Shown here: piece by piece, positions 2,409 through 8,260 of the stretch
Layout: each line of letters begins with the position of its first letter
Numbering within the stretch: the first letter of the stretch is position 1
Source of the DNA: a virus
Virus record (IMG/VR): IMGVR_UViG_3300042569_001681
Span: 1 to 24,044 of that record
Length of the DNA stretch: 24,044 bases
Reading direction: 5' to 3' (one strand)
Position numbers and translations under genes: made by a program
The notes under the pieces: model-generated
Seen by the model: the letters and a program-made list of their open reading frames with translations, nothing else
Told to the model about the DNA's origin: nothing
Database searches by the model: none

Positions 2409-3200
2409 ATGCAACTTGCCTTTGATTTAATTTCTGATTTACACATTGACACTTGGGATGGTGAGTTTGATTGGACCGGCTGTGCTACCAGCCCGCACTG
2501 TGTGGTCATTGGTGACGTATGTAAAAACAGATCCTTACTGTATAAGACACTAACACATCTTGGGCAATGCTATCAAGCAGTATTTTATGTTGATGGCAAT
2601 GACGAACATGTAAATTCTATTGATAATCTTAGCAGCAGCTATCGAGAAATGACTCGGCAAATTGGAAAAATATCCAATGTGGTGTATCTACAAGACAATG
2701 TGGTGGTAATCAATGGCGTGGCTATTTTGGGCACAAACGGTTGGTGGGGTTTTGATTTTGACAACACTATTGATCCTGAAGAAGTCAGAGATTGGTGGTG
2801 TGAGCAGTACTCCTACACACACGACAATTATGATGCCATACGCCGAGCCAGCACCATTGATGCCAATTACTTGATAGCCAGTGTAAAGAAATTACAAACT
2901 CATAGAGATGTAAAAAAAATTGTCATAGTCAGCCACACTGTGCCCATGCCTGAGTTGATTGCACATGATATTGATTTAGCTAATAAACTTAAATTCAATG
3001 TTATGGGCAACAGGCACATGCTGAATGCCTTAGACGTAGATACTGAACGAAAGATTGACACCTGGTGCTTTGGGCACTATCATGGCAAAGTTGACCAGTA
3101 TCGAGATGGTGTTCGTTATGTCAACAACTGCCGTGGCCGCAATAATACGCAATGGTCACAATATGTGTACCATCCATTGCGTATAATCATTGATTATTGA
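2409..3200 (+). CDS. Calcineurin-like metallophosphoesterase
   Basis: 263 residues with the full metal-ligand pattern of the superfamily: SDLHID (D10, H12), IGDV (D36), GNDEH (N64, H67), SHTVP near residue 178 and GHYHGK near residue 222. These residues normally bind two divalent metals and hydrolyse phosphomonoesters or phosphodiesters; the substrate cannot be told from sequence. The DxH motif is so close to the N-terminus that the ATG at 2409 must be near the true start. There is no Shine-Dalgarno sequence before it. It is plus-stranded, divergent from the gene at 2383 and convergent with clpS, overlapping it by 7 bases. Phages use such enzymes in nucleic acid or nucleotide metabolism, but that assignment is only a guess here. 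Confidence 0.88.
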   Translation: MQLAFDLISDLHIDTWDGEFDWTGCATSPHCVVIGDVCKNRSLLYKTLTHLGQCYQAVFYVDGNDEHVNSIDNLSSSYREMTRQIGKISNVVYLQDNVVVINGVAILGTNGWWGFDFDNTIDPEEVRDWWCEQYSYTHDNYDAIRRASTIDANYLIASVKKLQTHRDVKKIVIVSHTVPMPELIAHDIDLANKLKFNVMGNRHMLNALDVDTERKIDTWCFGHYHGKVDQYRDGVRYVNNCRGRNNTQWSQYVYHPLRIIIDY

Positions 3201-3505
3201 ACTGTTTCAGGTTCCAGTTTGATTTGAAGCGGATAGTTTTGTGATCTAGCACTCACAGTAACTTCAACACCTTTTTGTTCAGCAATCTCATAAGGCAACA
3301 CTGCCACACAAGCAGAGCCTTCTTCGTGAATGTCAATGGTGATTTGTTCTGCGGTTTCGGGGGTGTATTCAAAATATTCAACCAAACTTTCAACCACAAA
3401 TTCCATGGAAGTTGTGTTGTCGTTCAAGTAAACCACGCGAAACATAGGTGGCTCTTTTACGGCCTCTGATGGTTTGATTCGTGTGCGGGTGTCGCTCTGT
3501 GCCAT
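3194..3505 (-). CDS. clpS: ClpS-like protease adaptor
   Basis: 103 residues, close to the usual 100-110 of ClpS. Bacterial ClpS brings proteins with N-degrons (N-terminal Leu, Phe, Tyr, Trp) to the ClpAP protease. Visible conserved parts are PPMFRVVYLND (core strand), the degron-pocket residues in LNDNTTSMEFV (N, D, T and M of the E. coli NDDYTPM segment) and IDIHEEG, which holds the pocket histidine. The C-terminus YPLQIKLEPE also fits. The first 20 residues are a flexible tail, as in the family. A start-proximal AAGGAA site is present. It stands with Hsp20, bS21 and ClpX on the same strand. No clpA or clpP is in the window, so the host enzyme may be the partner (inference). Confidence 0.92.
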   Translation of the reverse strand: MAQSDTRTRIKPSEAVKEPPMFRVVYLNDNTTSMEFVVESLVEYFEYTPETAEQITIDIHEEGSACVAVLPYEIAEQKGVEVTVSARSQNYPLQIKLEPETVQ

Positions 3506-3531
3506 TTCTATTCCTTGCTTTGCTATACAAT

Positions 3532-3557
3532 CAGTGGCAGCAGGATTGCTGCCACTG
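3532..3557 (-). terminator. Perfect 10-bp hairpin between hsp20 and clpS
   Basis: CAGTGGCAGC is followed by a 6-base loop and its exact complement GCTGCCACTG. It lies between the hsp20 stop and the clpS start on the minus-strand transcript. Neither side has a strong T run, so it may be a weak terminator, an RNA-stabilising stem or a processing site rather than a classic rho-independent terminator. Confidence 0.45.
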
Positions 3558-3573
3558 TATTTACACTATTATA

Positions 3574-4026
3574 TTAGGAAGTGTAGGTGATCGCAATGGT
3601 CTTTGGCTTAGCGTCTTCCGGCACTTCACGCTTTAGGTAAACGCTTAAGATACCCAGTTCAAGATGAGCATTGCTGATCTCCACATGGTCTGCAAGTTGG
3701 AATTCACGACGGAAATCTCTATTGCTGATGCCTTTGTGCAGATAGTTTGGCACGATCTTGTCGCTATCAGGTTGATACTCTTTGCCTTCAATGATCAAGA
3801 ATTTTTTGTCCTTGGTTACTGAAAGATTATCCAATCCAAAACCAGCCACAGCAAGACTGATCATGTACTCATCTTCATTGATTTGCACAATGTTGTAAGG
3901 TGGATAGTTTGTTGAGGATTGTTGAGCACTCACACGCATGAGTTCATCAAACATGTTATCGAAACCGATACCAAATTTGTGAATTGATGGAATGTCGAAG
4001 CCGCGAAGGGTGAGAGTTTTTGTCAT
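3574..4026 (-). CDS. Small heat-shock protein, Hsp20/alpha-crystallin family
   Basis: 150 residues, an IbpA-like ATP-independent holdase that binds unfolding proteins. The alpha-crystallin domain runs from about residue 43 (YNIVQINEDEY) through LAVAGFGLDNLSV, FLIIEGKE, YLHKGISNRDFRREFQLADHV and LELGILSVYLKREVPE. The C-terminal KTIAIT contains the I-x-I motif that docks neighbouring subunits in the oligomer. Start at 4026 is fixed by AAAGGAG (4034-4040). Hsp20 genes are frequent in T4-like cyanophages and are thought to help virion scaffolding or protect proteins during infection; that role is not shown here. It may be transcribed from its own late-type promoter at 4091-4098. Confidence 0.95.
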   Translation of the reverse strand: MTKTLTLRGFDIPSIHKFGIGFDNMFDELMRVSAQQSSTNYPPYNIVQINEDEYMISLAVAGFGLDNLSVTKDKKFLIIEGKEYQPDSDKIVPNYLHKGISNRDFRREFQLADHVEISNAHLELGILSVYLKREVPEDAKPKTIAITYTS

Positions 4027-4090
4027 TTGTTTTCTCCTTTATATAAGCAAGATGACTTGTAATGTAGCCCCACTATGGGCACTACACTGT

Positions 4091-4098
4091 TATTTATT
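4091..4098 (-). promoter_or_regulatory. Candidate T4-type late promoter before hsp20
   Basis: The minus strand reads AATAAATA, one base from the T4 late consensus TATAAATA, about 65 bases before the hsp20 start. It overlaps TATAAT (minus strand), so a sigma70 -10 element is also possible, but no matching -35 was found. Confidence 0.35.
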
Positions 4099-4113
4099 AT
4101 ACACGAAGAAAAA

Positions 4114-4341
4114 TTATATTTTATTATTTAGGTCAGTTACCAAGCGGTAAGTTGTCCATTCTGGATGTTCTGGGTGTGGCACCCACGTCATTGCAAATAG
4201 TGTGTAAGATTCGTCTGAATCAAATGTAACCCGCAAGGTGTATTTGAATACTTTAGTACGGTATTTGATATTGTATTTTATTGCCCATGCATTCAGTTTG
4301 TTTCGAACTAAGTCTGAGGACAACTGGAACTCAATGTACAT
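4114..4341 (-). CDS. Small hypothetical protein coupled to bS21 gene
   Basis: 75 residues: MYIEFQLSSDLVRNKLNAW at the start, then alternating polar and hydrophobic strands (YRTKVFKYTLRVTF, YTLFAMTWVP). No known domain was recognised. Its ATG overlaps the TGA of the bS21 gene by one base (TGATG at 4339-4343), which suggests translational coupling. A small alpha/beta fold is likely from the pattern, but no function can be given. Confidence 0.7.
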   Translation of the reverse strand: MYIEFQLSSDLVRNKLNAWAIKYNIKYRTKVFKYTLRVTFDSDESYTLFAMTWVPHPEHPEWTTYRLVTDLNNKI

Positions 4342-4568
4342 CAGTACATTTTTTTAGGCAGTGCTTGCTCGGCCAGTTGTCTGCGCCAGCGATTTTTAGC
4401 AGCACTGCGTTTGAGCTTGCGAGCAGTAGTAGGCTTGGTGTAGAATTCACGATCACGCAGGTCGTTAAGAATACCAGATGTCTGGATTTTTTTCTTGAAT
4501 TTACGTAGAGCTTTTTCTACATTACCATCAGCGACTATTACCGACCTTCCTCGCAATTTGTTCATCAT
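4341..4568 (-). CDS. rpsU: Ribosomal protein bS21 homologue
   Basis: 75 residues, close to the 71 of E. coli bS21. The pattern is that of the family: N-terminal [18 protein letters not shown], then GILNDLRDREFYTKPTTARKLK, and a lysine/arginine-rich helical tail. bS21 sits near the mRNA exit and anti-Shine-Dalgarno region of the 30S subunit and is needed for initiation on many mRNAs. Phage copies are known from cultured and uncultured aquatic phages and are believed to replace the host protein. The first 41 bases overlap the end of clpX, so the two are read from one mRNA. AAAGG upstream of the start is a plausible ribosome site; ATG at 4565 is an alternative start. Confidence 0.93.
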   Translation of the reverse strand: MMNKLRGRSVIVADGNVEKALRKFKKKIQTSGILNDLRDREFYTKPTTARKLKRSAAKNRWRRQLAEQALPKKMY

Positions 4569-5760
4569 GTACCTTTAGTTCTGTAGGAGTATTTACCAGG
4601 TCATTAGTGATTTTTACTTGGTCAATGCCTTGTTCTTTATAACGTGCTAGATTAAACATGTGTGGCAATAGCACACGTTCCAGTTCGCTATGCAGGCCAC
4701 GTGCTCCTGTTTTGTTTTTTAGAGTATTTTTAGCCACCTGTTCCAGTGCTGTTTTATCAAAGTCTAATGCAACTTGATCTTGTGCAAACAACCACTGATA
4801 TTGGTCCACATAACTATGCTTGATTTCTGTCAGGATAGATATCAAATCTTCCAGTGCAAGTTCATTTAGTGCAACCCAGCTTGGAAAACGTCCCACAAAC
4901 TCTGGAATCATACCAAATCTAACCAAGTCGTCGGGTGTTACTTGGTCAAGGTCACCAGCACGGTCTACTGACACTTCAGCTTGAAATCCAATAGCAGTAC
5001 CACGTATGCGATTGCGCACAATGTTGTCTAGACCCACAAATGCACCACCAGCGATAAACAAGATGTTTGTGGTGTCAATCTCTACTGTTTCCCCATTGGG
5101 ATGTTTGCGGCCGCCGGTTGGTGTGATTCTGCACTTGGTGCCTTCTACCAACTTGAGCAGAGCTTGCTGTACACCTTCTCCTGACACATCTCGTGTGATA
5201 CTTTGACTTTCACTGCGGCGACTGATCTTGTCTATTTCATCCACAAACACAATACCTTGTTGTGTTTTTTCAACGTCATTGCCTGAAGCGGCATACAAGC
5301 GAGAAATTAAACTTTCAACGTCGTCGCCCACATAACCTGCTTCGGTAAGGCTAGTGGCATCAGCAATCACAAAAGGCACATCTAAATATCTAGCCACTGA
5401 TCGTGCCAACAATGTTTTGCCTGAGCCTGTAGGGCCCAACATCAAGATGTTGACTTTTTCAATTTCAGTATTTTTGTCTTGGTTGCGTATGCGTTTGTAG
5501 TGATTGGCAATGGCCACACTCAGCACCATTTTGGCACGATCTTGTCCTATAACGTACTGGTCAAGATGTTTTAAGATGGCTCTTGGATCAAGGCTAACAT
5601 GTTCTACAGGTTTAACCACTGGATCATCTATCAAGAGCGTTTGGCAAAGATCCACACACTCATTGCAAATAGCGACATCCTGGCCCACTATCAATTTAAC
5701 CACTGCATCCTTGTGTTTGCCACAAAAACTGCAATTATCTAAATTTTCGGTTTGTTTCAT
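4528..5760 (-). CDS. clpX: ATP-dependent Clp protease ATPase subunit ClpX
   Basis: 410 residues, near full length (E. coli 424). It has the N-terminal C4 zinc-binding domain (C10, C13, C32, C35), Walker A GPTGSGKT (109-116), pore loop GYVG (142-145), Walker B IVFVDEID (170-177), RKH pore loop (218-220), arginine finger region EFVGRFP (about 287-293) and sensor 2 GARG (352-355). The IGF tripeptide (257-259) that docks ClpX onto ClpP is kept. All motifs for unfolding and ClpP binding therefore look intact, so it could act with host ClpP or alone as an unfoldase. Its ATG overlaps the stop of the upstream membrane-protein gene (ATGA), and its end overlaps the bS21 gene. Confidence 0.97.
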
Positions 5761-7256
5761 AAATTGTTGGGTTGTTTAAGACGCTCTGCAACTTGTTCTC
5801 GTTCGATATCACTCAGTAAGTCCGGTTCATACTCACCTGTAGTAATCTTATCAATAAGATGATCAATGTATGCTGTGTCGTAAGTATAGTTATCTGTAGA
5901 GTTTTTGTCAATAATAATCCACTCGTCTCCGTTGAATTTATACAACTGTGGTGGCATGCGATCAGTTTTTACAAAGGTGTCACCACGCCCGGGATTTGCA
6001 GGAAATTGACTGCCAAAACTTGAGTGTGTGTATTTTGGATCATGCCAAGGCAATCGATCAATATAGCCTCGGGCTAGTTTGTTTCGTTGACTTTTAATAG
6101 TATCATCTGGATGATCCATTTTCCAGCGACGTATGGCTTCTTTGTCAATTTCATCTTCGTCTGGTTGATTTAACGCTTCAATTTCTTTGTCAGTCCAAGG
6201 ACGTATTTCCACACCAGGTATTTCTTCCGGGGGCCGAATAGCCATTGCAGCCTTATCTTCTCGGACAGGATCTGGCGCAACCATGGGCTTGAGATTTTTA
6301 AAATGTTCAAACGGCCAAGCAAGATAAGGATAACGTTCGTTCCATGGACGTTCATCTTCTTTTTTATCAAACATCCAACCTGGTGGATGCGGATCTTTTG
6401 GTAGTTCCACACTGGCCTGAATCTGTTCTAGTTGTTGTTCAGTGAGAGGCCCATCGTCTGGTTCGTATTTGGGTTCGTCGTGTACAAAGCCGCCTGTGCC
6501 TTGTCGTGCCCATTCAAACTGTTTGTTGGATGCAAGGATAAGTGTGAGAGCAAGTGGATCAAACACCAACACAATCATAATGATCATCCAACGCACTGCA
6601 CGTTCTAACAGATTGGAATCAGGATTGTCTCCGTAAAGCAAGGCCGCAATGTATTTGATTGGTCCTACTTCTGCTTCGACCTTGCGTACCTCTGCGGCAA
6701 TCGGCGCACGTTCTTCGCTAATGGCGGCAATAGTTTTCTGTTCGGCCGCAATCTCAGATTGAAGTCTTGCTCGTTCTTTCTGCTGTGAGCGACGGATTTG
6801 TACCGCCTTATCCGCACCTTTTTCATCACTGCTTCGACCCATAACTTGGTCCACAGCTTCATCCATCTGTTTAAGCGCCTTCCGGTTCGCATCTATATTA
6901 TCCTTGGCTGTTCGAATCTTTTCGTCGTAGATGGCAATTTTACTTTGCACATCACCCGACACTAGACTTTGATCCGAGTGTGCCTTTGACAAATAGCCAA
7001 AGATACCCATGCTGGTCAGTATCATTAGGAATGCTATGGCCGGTACCAAATATAATTTGAACACAATACCGGCACGGCGCCAGTTGTTGTGCAACCATAC
7101 AGTGGCAACAATTTTGCCCAATTCCAACGAGCCGCCCATGATGATCACGGGTATTGTGGCCGCCGAGAATATAGCAGTAAGACCTGCCACTGAGTAGTAG
7201 GCAGCTACGGCGCTTAGGAGTAATGCGGTGGCGAGAATTCCAAATCCAAATATCAT
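5757..7256 (-). CDS. Multi-spanning membrane protein with central coiled coil
   Basis: 499 residues. Hydrophobic segments lie at about 2-30, 33-55, 64-88 and 222-243. Between the third and fourth is a long charged helix (about 100-205) rich in Lys, Glu, Gln and Ala that looks like a coiled coil. The C-terminal half is soluble and rich in Pro, Asp and Trp. No enzyme motif is seen. Similar membrane/coiled-coil proteins occur in aquatic T4-like phages without a known role; an inner-membrane location is inferred. The start at 7256 has only a weak ribosome site and lies 5 bases after the upstream gene, so translation is probably coupled. It overlaps the clpX start by ATGA. Confidence 0.8.
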   Translation of the reverse strand: MIFGFGILATALLLSAVAAYYSVAGLTAIFSAATIPVIIMGGSLELGKIVATVWLHNNWRRAGIVFKLYLVPAIAFLMILTSMGIFGYLSKAHSDQSLVSGDVQSKIAIYDEKIRTAKDNIDANRKALKQMDEAVDQVMGRSSDEKGADKAVQIRRSQQKERARLQSEIAAEQKTIAAISEERAPIAAEVRKVEAEVGPIKYIAALLYGDNPDSNLLERAVRWMIIMIVLVFDPLALTLILASNKQFEWARQGTGGFVHDEPKYEPDDGPLTEQQLEQIQASVELPKDPHPPGWMFDKKEDERPWNERYPYLAWPFEHFKNLKPMVAPDPVREDKAAMAIRPPEEIPGVEIRPWTDKEIEALNQPDEDEIDKEAIRRWKMDHPDDTIKSQRNKLARGYIDRLPWHDPKYTHSSFGSQFPANPGRGDTFVKTDRMPPQLYKFNGDEWIIIDKNSTDNYTYDTAYIDHLIDKITTGEYEPDLLSDIEREQVAERLKQPNNL

Positions 7257-7261
7257 AAAAA

Positions 7262-7582
7262 TTATTTACCAGGCGGTGGCATGGCAATCACCGCATGCTT
7301 TACTGCCACCCATGTGGCAAAGGTCTGATCTGGCACTTCAAACCAAACCGGCACAGGTTGCAATGAAACTCCCCACAATGCAGTGTGCTCCAATCTGCGT
7401 TTTACCCTGCTTTGAGTGCGCCAATTTGTTCCAAACATGGTTCTAGCTTCTTTCATGACTGCATACCATTCTTTAGTAGTATGCAATCGAAACCAAATAC
7501 GGTGCATGACCAAAGGCGTTACTTTAAGCGAGTCAAGTGACTCAGGGATACTCAACGCAGAGCCCTCAATTTTGACAGTCAT
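7262..7582 (-). CDS. Small hypothetical protein
   Basis: 106 residues, basic and Trp-rich (WFRLHTTKEWYAVMKEAR, FGTNWRTQSRVKRRLEHT, ALWGVSLQPVPVWFEVPDQ). No signal peptide, membrane segment or known domain was recognised. The start at 7582 is supported by GGAAAGG six to seven bases upstream. This ATG follows a 186-base untranslated leader or separate RNA, and is the first gene behind the perfect promoter at 7774-7802, so it is likely transcribed early and strongly together with the membrane-protein gene and clpX. Confidence 0.7.
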   Translation of the reverse strand: MTVKIEGSALSIPESLDSLKVTPLVMHRIWFRLHTTKEWYAVMKEARTMFGTNWRTQSRVKRRLEHTALWGVSLQPVPVWFEVPDQTFATWVAVKHAVIAMPPPGK

Positions 7583-7769
7583 TTCTAACCTTTCCAGATT
7601 TTATCCTCTCGGCATACTCCCAGGGTACCAGCCCAGGTTTTGATCCTAAGATCGAGGTCCTTGTCGCAACCTATAGGATTTACGTCTAACTTGCCACGGA
7701 ACGCCGCAGGCCCGGGCGATCGATCACCCCACAGCGCCATTAGTCTACCCCATCTCTTTGATCATGCCC
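7583..7769 (-). ncRNA. Candidate structured RNA or structured 5' leader
   Basis: About 186 bases without a convincing reading frame, visibly more GC-rich than its surroundings, begin right after a perfect promoter. Possible helices in the minus-strand RNA: GGCAU/AUGCC closing the element (7764-7768 with 7611-7615), GGGGU/ACCCU (7747-7751 with 7622-7626), CUAAU/GUUAG (7739-7743 with 7686-7690), GCGCUG/CGGCGU (7732-7737 with 7701-7706), a 6-bp stem with UCGA loop (7714-7729), and AUCCUA/UAGGAU (7674-7679 with 7643-7648). They nest without conflict. No known RNA family was recognised. It may be an independent small RNA or a regulatory leader of the gene at 7582. Confidence 0.5.
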
Positions 7770-7773
7770 TGTA

Positions 7774-7802
7774 ATTATAACAACACTTGACCACATTGTC
7801 AA
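7774..7802 (-). promoter_or_regulatory. Perfect sigma70-type promoter
   Basis: The minus strand has TTGACA (7797-7802), a spacer of exactly 17 bases and TATAAT (7774-7779). All twelve consensus bases and the ideal spacing are present. Transcription would start near 7767-7769, just before the structured RNA. T4-like phages use host-type promoters of this strength for early genes. Confidence 0.85.
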
Positions 7803-7807
7803 GTGTT
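7782..7807. repeat. Perfect 10-bp inverted repeat over the promoter -35 region
   Basis: AACACTTGAC, a 6-base loop and GTCAAGTGTT. One arm contains most of the -35 element, so it could be an operator. Read on the plus strand it is followed by TTGTTTTTGTTT, which also resembles a rho-independent terminator, though no plus-strand gene lies upstream. Confidence 0.7.
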
Positions 7808-8260
7808 TTGTTTTTGTTTGACAAGATTGCACACAGTTTGAAACTGTTCGTATGCATCCCGCACAGCCGGATGTGTCATGAGTTTGTCTGCTTCCGCAAT
7901 CATAGCATTGACCCCTGCTTCGGCATGATCTCGCGCACTGCCCATGGTCAGTGTGGCCAGGTCATCACCAAACTCTTTTGCCAATTTTTCCCAGGCTTTC
8001 TTTTGTCCAGGAGTAATAGGTGTACGCTGTGGCCGCATCTCACTGGCCTTGTGCATGGCTTCACAAATGCCATCTTCGGCCAGTCGCCCTGCTGCAATCA
8101 TTGCGGCATAGTTGGGATTGATGTTGTACCGACGGCTTTGTCCCCCTGGATAGCACATCACAATGTGTGTGCCCTTGGAAAAACTGTCCAAGTACTCACT
8201 GTCGTACTCACTCACAGGCACATACCTACGGCCAATTTTTTCGTAGTAAATCTTTTTCAT
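7799..8260 (-). CDS. Hypothetical protein
   Basis: 153 residues starting MKKIYYEKIGRRYVPVSEYD. The N-terminal part is strand-like with GTHIVMCYPGGQSRRYNI; the rest is helical and charged (PGQKKAWEKLAKEFGDDLATL, HPAVRDAYEQFQTVCNLV). No known domain was recognised. I chose the start at 8260 rather than the upstream in-frame ATG at 8302, because it overlaps the stop of the lipoprotein gene (ATGA) and has GGAG seven bases upstream, while a start at 8302 would add a stretch made from the neighbour's repeated 3' end. Its C-terminal KQKQNT codons run into the promoter inverted repeat. The ending AYEQF..VCNLV resembles the end of the protein at 9600-10007 (AWNKFQMVAGL), hinting at a shared small domain. 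Confidence 0.7.
   Translation of the reverse strand: MKKIYYEKIGRRYVPVSEYDSEYLDSFSKGTHIVMCYPGGQSRRYNINPNYAAMIAAGRLAEDGICEAMHKASEMRPQRTPITPGQKKAWEKLAKEFGDDLATLTMGSARDHAEAGVNAMIAEADKLMTHPAVRDAYEQFQTVCNLVKQKQNT

Follow-up and report, generated by a model that had tools for sequence, protein, structure and literature searches.

What kind of transcript begins at a perfect sigma70 promoter on the minus strand of a phage genome, with no evident gene directly behind it? The question is raised by IMG/VR virus record IMGVR_UViG_3300042569_001681, whose 24,044 bases are the window analysed here. The original prediction, made from the sequence alone, placed a promoter and a structured RNA at 7583-7802. 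Comparison with relatives gives good support to a larger element of about 265 nucleotides (nt), which consists of a leader of about 185 nt and the first 27 codons of the following gene, encoding a 106-amino-acid (aa) protein here called p106, and which would extend to about 7504. The structure of this RNA is well supported, and from it we infer a function: the RNA may be a cis-acting translational control element in the mRNA with p106 as its likeliest factor, acting as an autogenous repressor, a reading to which we assign about an even chance.

Results

A predicted fold shared by the leader and the p106 gene

Related sequences were collected from IMG/VR. A p106 peptide-pattern search gave 206 related stretches, of which the best 80 were fetched, and a second search, centred on the divergent protein of locus L139, gave 204, of which 80 were fetched (34 of these 80 contigs were already in the first set). 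Of 65 unique elements, 60 were under 97% identity; L169, whose open reading frame (ORF) lacks the partner codons of helix P1, was dropped, and L178, L195 and L219 were added. The resulting alignment (A3) holds 62 sequences and covers the leader and 88 coding bases. The features of the element in the window are as follows.

7774-7802, minus strand: sigma70 promoter TTGACA-17-TATAAT, 12 of 12 consensus bases, TG before the -10 box; start expected near 7767-7769
7756-7767, minus strand: P1 5′ strand, GCAUGAUCAAAG, predicted transcript 5′ end; 12 base pairs with 7515-7504, which covary
7748-7750, minus strand: P2 5′ strand, pairing with 7677-7675 (A3 columns 22-25/107-109, 100% of cells paired)
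7741-7745, minus strand: P3 5′ strand, pairing with 7688-7684; all five pairs changed on both sides
7736-7740, minus strand: P4a 5′ strand, pairing with 7700-7696 (93.2% of cells paired)
7728-7736, minus strand: P4b 5′ strand, CGCUGUGGG in the window, pairing with 7710-7702 (inner five pairs 88.7% paired; swap test on the whole P4 arm)
7692-7695, minus strand: 5′ side GGCA of the pseudoknot PK, pairing with 7614-7611 (99.2% of cells paired)
7664-7667, minus strand: P8 5′ strand GCGA, pairing with UCGC at 7531-7528 in p106 codons 18-19 (100% of cells paired)
7654-7660, minus strand: P7 5′ strand, pairing with 7608-7605 and 7598-7596 (swap test; outer part 80.9% of cells paired)
7642-7653, minus strand: P5 hairpin, GAUC-UUAG-GAUC in the window (swap test)
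7619-7637, minus strand: P6 hairpin (swap test; poorly aligned in A3 and missed there by RNAalifold)
7589-7595, minus strand: Shine-Dalgarno (SD) sequence GGAAAGG, between P7 and P9; core AAAGG (A3 columns 208-212) unpaired in the consensus
7262-7582, minus strand: p106 gene, 106 aa; the structured RNA covers codons 1-27
7532-7576, minus strand: P9 coding-region hairpin, 7576-7572/7536-7532 and 7566-7563/7547-7544 (99.0% and 96.8% of cells paired)
7504-7515, minus strand: P1 3′ strand, CUUUGGUCAUGC, p106 codons 23-27; covaries, with low synonymous change in codons 12-26

On the 62 sequences, a 58-pair structure has standard pairs in 94.4% of cells, with double changes in 39 pairs and 421 cells; it was picked on the same sequences on which the pairs were counted, which favours it. 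None of 500 shuffles scored as high, and pairing fell to 27-40% when the structure was slid by 1-3 columns. In a tree-based null model, in which the substitutions of each 3′ column were re-placed on a FastTree tree in 200 runs, doubly changed cells averaged 117 (standard deviation 24, maximum 180) against the 421 observed, and paired cells 2806 (standard deviation 53, maximum 2966) against 3380. Double changes that fall on one and the same branch and keep a pair number 87. RNAalifold, run on A3 and blind to the proposed helices, drew P1, P2, P3, P4, P5, P8 and P9, with a double change in 33 of its 49 pairs. When strands were swapped among sequences and folding energies compared, P1, P2-P3, P4, P5, P6 and P7 were each matched by none of 2000 permutations. 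Conserved pairing among related phages, put forward with the original prediction as a test, was found by covariation, as a partly different set of helices.

The weakest helix is PK, which has double changes in two of its four pairs, was equalled by 62 of 2000 permutations in the swap test, and whose variable pairs were reached in 71 and 43 of 200 tree nulls; since RNAalifold takes no pseudoknots, it could not be drawn there. P8 and P9 involve p106 codons 3-19, and the start site thus lies inside the fold. One P8 pair falls on the third base of a Ser codon and is A-U in 35 sequences (A with UCU) and C-G in 24 (C with UCG), a pattern seen in 0 of 200 tree nulls, and P9 has double changes in seven of its nine pairs. 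Across the 62 sequences the P5 loop is GNRA in 44, UUAG in 8 and UUCG in 5, and long conserved stretches remain unpaired, namely UAGGnUGnGACA, AAAAC and CUGGUACC. A CAAGG/CCUUG helix read by eye was discarded, being confined to one subgroup.

Predicted pairing of the transcript 5′ end with codons 23-27

The helix that closes the element was originally drawn between 7764-7768 and 7611-7615. That pairing is rejected: relatives instead pair 7767-7756 with 7515-7504, inside p106, and the abandoned 3′ strand fits the less strongly supported pseudoknot 7614-7611/7692-7695. Among 28 distinct combinations of P1 strands, a strand forms on average 11.46 of 12 pairs with its own partner versus 10.01 when partners are swapped, and no permutation out of 20000 was as good. 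The test was repeated on 54 of the 74 second-search loci carrying the RNA, after removal of identical or nearly identical rows. A covariance model of the leader (R1, 34 sequences, 30 of which came from the 80 loci of the first search) fixed the 5′ strand, and the partner was taken as the best of 109 positions, for controls likewise. Of these loci, 35 form all 12 pairs and 50 form at least 11, compared with a swapped mean of 10.1, or of 9.5 when the 5′ strands differ at four or more places; in the remaining four the model start lay too far downstream, and pairing read by hand gives 12, 12, 12 and 11. The 18 combinations beyond the first 28 pair at 12 of 12 (12 cases) or 11 (6 cases). Even the GCAU core covaries, with GCAC facing GUGC in L317 and GUAU facing AUAC in L327, and one P1 pair is A-C in 15 of the 62 A3 sequences. 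Folding of the window's own 268 nt places P1 in both the minimum free energy (MFE) structure and the centroid.

Two other accounts of these strands were rejected. A terminal inverted repeat of a mobile element does not fit, and RNA pairing does, because G-U pairs occur in P1 and its sequence varies. In the window subgroup the SD can be matched by eye to the P1 3′ strand, a pairing that L196, L214, L216 and L219 do not keep.

The codons that would take part in the fold change little. Codon pairs specifying the same amino acid differ at a rate of 0.25 over codons 2-25 and 0.20 over codons 12-26, versus 0.39-0.41 later in the gene. The AlphaFold2 model of p106 has a predicted local distance difference test score (pLDDT) under 50 at residues 1-14, with means of 48 for residues 11-20 and 81 for residues 21-30, and its first strand spans 27-33. 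From the Met-His encoded in P1 onward the protein is basic (mean isoelectric point 10.1, 44 members). We read the N-terminal tail as a predicted disordered segment whose letters serve the RNA.

Folding energy and the short reading frame

Might the leader nonetheless be a chance structure, or a gene for a small protein of 51 aa? Two facts agree with this: the leader folds no better than shuffled sequence, and the frame (7740-7585, minus strand) is open in the window. For the 186-nt leader z = -0.01, which goes against the expectation of a favourable energy; taken alone, this test would have rejected a real RNA, since the relatives show covariation. The 268-nt element of the window has z = -1.04, and over 20 chosen sequences the mean z moves from -0.44 for the leader to -1.76 with the coding part, a gain that locates the leader's missing pairing partner. 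The ATG aligned with that of the 51-aa frame is kept in 53 of 62 sequences, and the frame is open for at least 45 codons in only 4 of them, one of which (L148) is identical to the window here; among relatives its distance to p106, taken modulo 3, has every possible value. Given the covariation and the loss of the frame in relatives, we attach practically no weight to this account, and the original view that no convincing gene directly follows the promoter holds.

The leader had also been described as richer in GC than its surroundings. This is so relative to its 3′ side (0.53 at 7610-7789 against 0.41-0.48), whereas the 5′ side (7880-8059) has the same value, 0.53.

Promoter and transcript ends

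The promoter at 7802-7774 is as perfect as originally described, with 12 of 12 consensus bases and a 17-base spacer. The best fit among the 62 sequences is 12 of 12 in 50, 11 in 8, 10 in 2 and 8 in 2. Each of 13 contigs has 2-12 perfect sigma70 promoters (spacers 16-18), lying on the same strand throughout the contig, and a promoter of this strength is therefore usual for these phages; two of the contigs, G001 and G003, have the same coordinates and probably represent a single phage. In L004:385, L006:322 and similar close relatives, a second promoter a few kilobases upstream shares the start CAGGGCATGAAACC and has a different sequence behind it. A perfect 10-base-pair inverted repeat at 7782-7807 of the window, overlapping the -35 box, looks like a terminator on either strand; it is perhaps the terminator of the upstream gene, which encodes a 167-aa protein and whose end varies among relatives, and the perfect palindrome is lost in most relatives inspected by eye.

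A strong promoter, mutually paired ends and constrained tail codons would also suit an RNA that is functional in itself, as a ribonucleoprotein partner or as a cis antiterminator acting on RNA polymerase, and whose overlap with the p106 frame at its 3′ part is incidental; its size and complexity exceed those of the T4 operators. We consider this distinctly unlikely. A simple consensus scan of the minus strand from 7767 to 7583 found no terminator-like site, the 3′ end of the element shows none either, contig ends apart no copy was seen without p106, and, with 2-12 perfect promoters per contig, the strong one is not special. Of the two forms first considered, a regulatory leader or a small RNA, the leader is retained, whereas a free-standing small RNA is disfavoured by the lack of a terminator-like site and by the entry of the structure into coding sequence.

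Distribution and novelty

R1 finds the RNA in all 80 fetched p106 relatives of the first search, with one copy in the window. In the second search 74 of 80 carry it, at scores down to 57 bits, including 40 of the 46 contigs outside the first set; in L315 and L346 the sequence begins too near the gene to tell whether it is present. Applied to 16 long contigs, R1 finds one strong copy in 14 and none in two; at the corresponding loci of these two (L122 and L133) the 167-aa gene is present and p106 finds no match; the membrane-protein gene that usually follows p106 is present in L133. A pattern search for the RNA core had 84 matching stretches, of which 80 were returned and examined: p106 follows in 77, two end before p106, and one match arose by chance. 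In the collections searched, and with these patterns, the RNA was seen only before p106. Its promoter sequence, its helices, their extension into the coding region and this constant gene linkage all emerge from comparison of the relatives.

Some divergent relatives depart from this plan. A compact variant of the RNA, scoring 57-66 bits, occurs in L314, L316 and L321-L325 at about 1315-1460 with a shifted start and, by eye, no clear SD; translation in this group probably starts further in. The RNA-less p106 homologues of L355 and L366, around position 1500, have a promoter-like sequence a few bases before a Met matching codon 26; to judge from the sequence they seem to start at that Met, which suggests leaderless mRNAs.

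The distribution bears on a riboswitch, in which the conserved core would recognise an ion or small molecule, with P1, P8 and P9 on the side that forms the expression platform over the p106 start. The pseudoknot, the long conserved unpaired stretches and the fold around the start site would all suit such a device. We regard it as unlikely, because the RNA serves one gene family in one phage group, has no strong second copy in the 16 long contigs, yields a single chance match before another gene and matches no riboswitch in Rfam. Riboswitch classes usually, if not obligatorily, precede several genes of a pathway, and in the sequences covered only p106 was seen behind this RNA.

In the window, L087 and L093 no Rfam family (riboswitches, manA, wcaG, thermometers, 6S and others) reaches its gathering score, in keeping with the earlier failure to recognise a known family; the two window matches (E 6.9 and 9.6) lie far under their gathering scores, and 12 divergent loci have none at E up to 5. 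GenBank phages searched with the element, p106 or the 51-aa ORF yielded no relatives, and one p106 scan of GTDB genomes gave 21 pattern matches and no relative. Titles and abstract openings in the literature held nothing recognisable as a p106-leader RNA. The suggestion of a new phage RNA is borne out in that comparison reveals a structured leader without an Rfam family. A structured mRNA leader is a known kind of element; the RNA family and its architecture, in which codons 23-27 pair with the beginning of the transcript and so enclose the start site, are new within the reach of these searches.

The phages are large and T4-like, and the group is known here from metagenomes alone. Of 13 long contigs, 5 have gp23 of T4-like phages, and for the window's nrdA the nearest counterparts are those of large Xanthomonas and Stenotrophomonas phages (53-59% identity).

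Genes behind p106

3194-7256, minus strand: 499-aa membrane protein, ClpX, two 75-aa proteins, Hsp20 (IbpA-like) and ClpS

In 38 loci chosen for comparison, the membrane protein (499 aa in the window) follows p106 in 36; 33 have ClpX, 27 Hsp20 and 21 ClpS. NCBIfam identifies ClpX above its cut-off (E 6.5e-158), and IbpA-like Hsp20 (E 2.7e-33) and ClpS (E 7.2e-22) under their strict cut-offs. Phage ClpX, Hsp20 and ClpS stand in one gene row at 3194-5760 of the window; no ClpP was seen among the window genes examined, in which no search aimed at ClpP was made.

A row encoding Hsp20, ClpX and ClpS could be gated by an RNA temperature sensor in which leader and coding region refold with temperature. 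In cspA cold-shock mRNA the leader pairs with the coding region, as it is predicted to do here. The cspA product is a different protein from p106. According to PMC9947658, cspA mRNA is a cis-acting thermosensor whose product acts on its own translation. RNA thermometers such as ROSE and FourU hold the SD in a hairpin that can melt, and in the window subgroup the SD can pair in a small hairpin. Only 14 of the 62 sequences, the window's included, can form this hairpin of five local base pairs; no Rfam thermometer family matches, and the conserved sequence core is more than melting requires; a temperature sensor of this type is improbable.

Discussion

Our data point to an RNA around the start of p106 that may act on translation. 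In the mechanism we propose, a sigma70-type promoter would start the transcript at P1, and the 5′ end of the transcript would close on p106 codons 23-27, while P8 and the P9 hairpin would hold codons 3-19. The SD and start codon would then lie in a loop of the pseudoknotted fold, flanked by P7 and P9, with the pseudoknot locking the leader core. Such a folded form could restrain ribosome loading, and a bound factor or a refolding event could set the output of p106, the membrane protein, ClpX, Hsp20 and ClpS. The likeliest factor would be p106 itself, as an autogenous translational repressor. It is from the sequences that we infer the transcription start, co-transcription of the row, the translational mode and the direction of control. 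The architecture makes it plausible that the start site is buried, and in the predicted ensembles the SD is neither buried nor free.

The case for p106 as an autogenous repressor draws on its steady association with the RNA, its basic region past the tail, and T4 precedents. According to PMC3014915, T4 genes 32 and 43 have autogenous translational operators, that of gene 32 with a pseudoknot. Our element resembles these in belonging to the mRNA of a T4-like phage, in its structured leader near the ribosome-binding site and, for gene 32, in its pseudoknot. Unlike those short hairpin or pseudoknot sites, it is about 265 nt long, has paired ends and involves 27 codons; nor is it one of them, since the gene behind it is p106, which has no confident family match. 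As with autogenous operators in general, a conserved structured RNA surrounds, and is linked to, the start of the gene whose product may be the regulator. That p106 is the RNA's ligand is the weakest part of the proposal and, even granting the rest, rather doubtful. A bolder reading, somewhat less likely than not, is that this RNA represents a novel class of regulatory element in phages: the first bases of the transcript would lock onto codons 23-27 and close a pseudoknotted domain around the start, the protein tail mainly supplying RNA sequence. The suggestion about the tail follows from its predicted disorder and from the two RNA-less relatives that seem to start at the codon-26 Met.

Several observations weaken parts of the overall picture, beginning with the selection of the 58-pair structure on the sequences counted. 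Taken individually, only 20 of the 41 pairs that vary on both sides reach 2 or fewer of 200 in the tree null, P3 has one mismatch in the window, and RNAalifold omits P6, P7 and PK and draws a two-pair helix that conflicts with PK. The SD core belongs to no conserved helix; its ensemble unpaired probability averages 0.54 over the 62 sequences and is under 0.5 in 16, and the SD hairpin that appears in the window's MFE, leaving the SD partly paired, would compete with P7. At L169:1501-1773 the leader is as in L161, and p106 lacks the P1 partner codons through a deletion, either natural or an error of assembly. L314 and other members of the compact group have a stop in the tail frame, which also speaks against a simple role for the tail. 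L349, L352, L355 and L366 keep p106 and the membrane-protein gene without the RNA, which is therefore dispensable. Finally, no family or clear fold match marks p106 as RNA-binding. In Pfam, PHROGs and NCBIfam, p106 and the 167-aa upstream protein have only weak PHROGs matches (E 0.02 and 0.31), and for p106 Foldseek gives none at E 0.001 and VIA-align is uninformative (best Z 6.9).

Other structured leaders differ from this one. The manA and wcaG motifs, known to Rfam from T4-like cyanophages, are likewise structured leaders in T4-like phages, and the manA motif is reported to precede genes including ibpA chaperones (PMC2864571). Unlike them, our RNA precedes one gene only, and neither gives an Rfam match at E up to 10 in the window or up to 5 in the 12 relatives. 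It also differs from ribosomal-protein leaders such as rpsO in that p106 has no match among ribosomal proteins or other families.

The catalogue seldom gains large structured RNAs with strong covariation, and neither this RNA nor p106 was found in the GenBank phage collection searched. The element offers a clear case of codons shaped by RNA pairing, as well as a caution: had the leader been judged only by the folding energy of a single sequence, the RNA would have been discarded. It is probably a switch for protein quality control genes. A conserved row of host-like genes of this kind, ClpX, Hsp20 and ClpS, is tied to a specific RNA device, and phage control of these genes thereby becomes a testable question.
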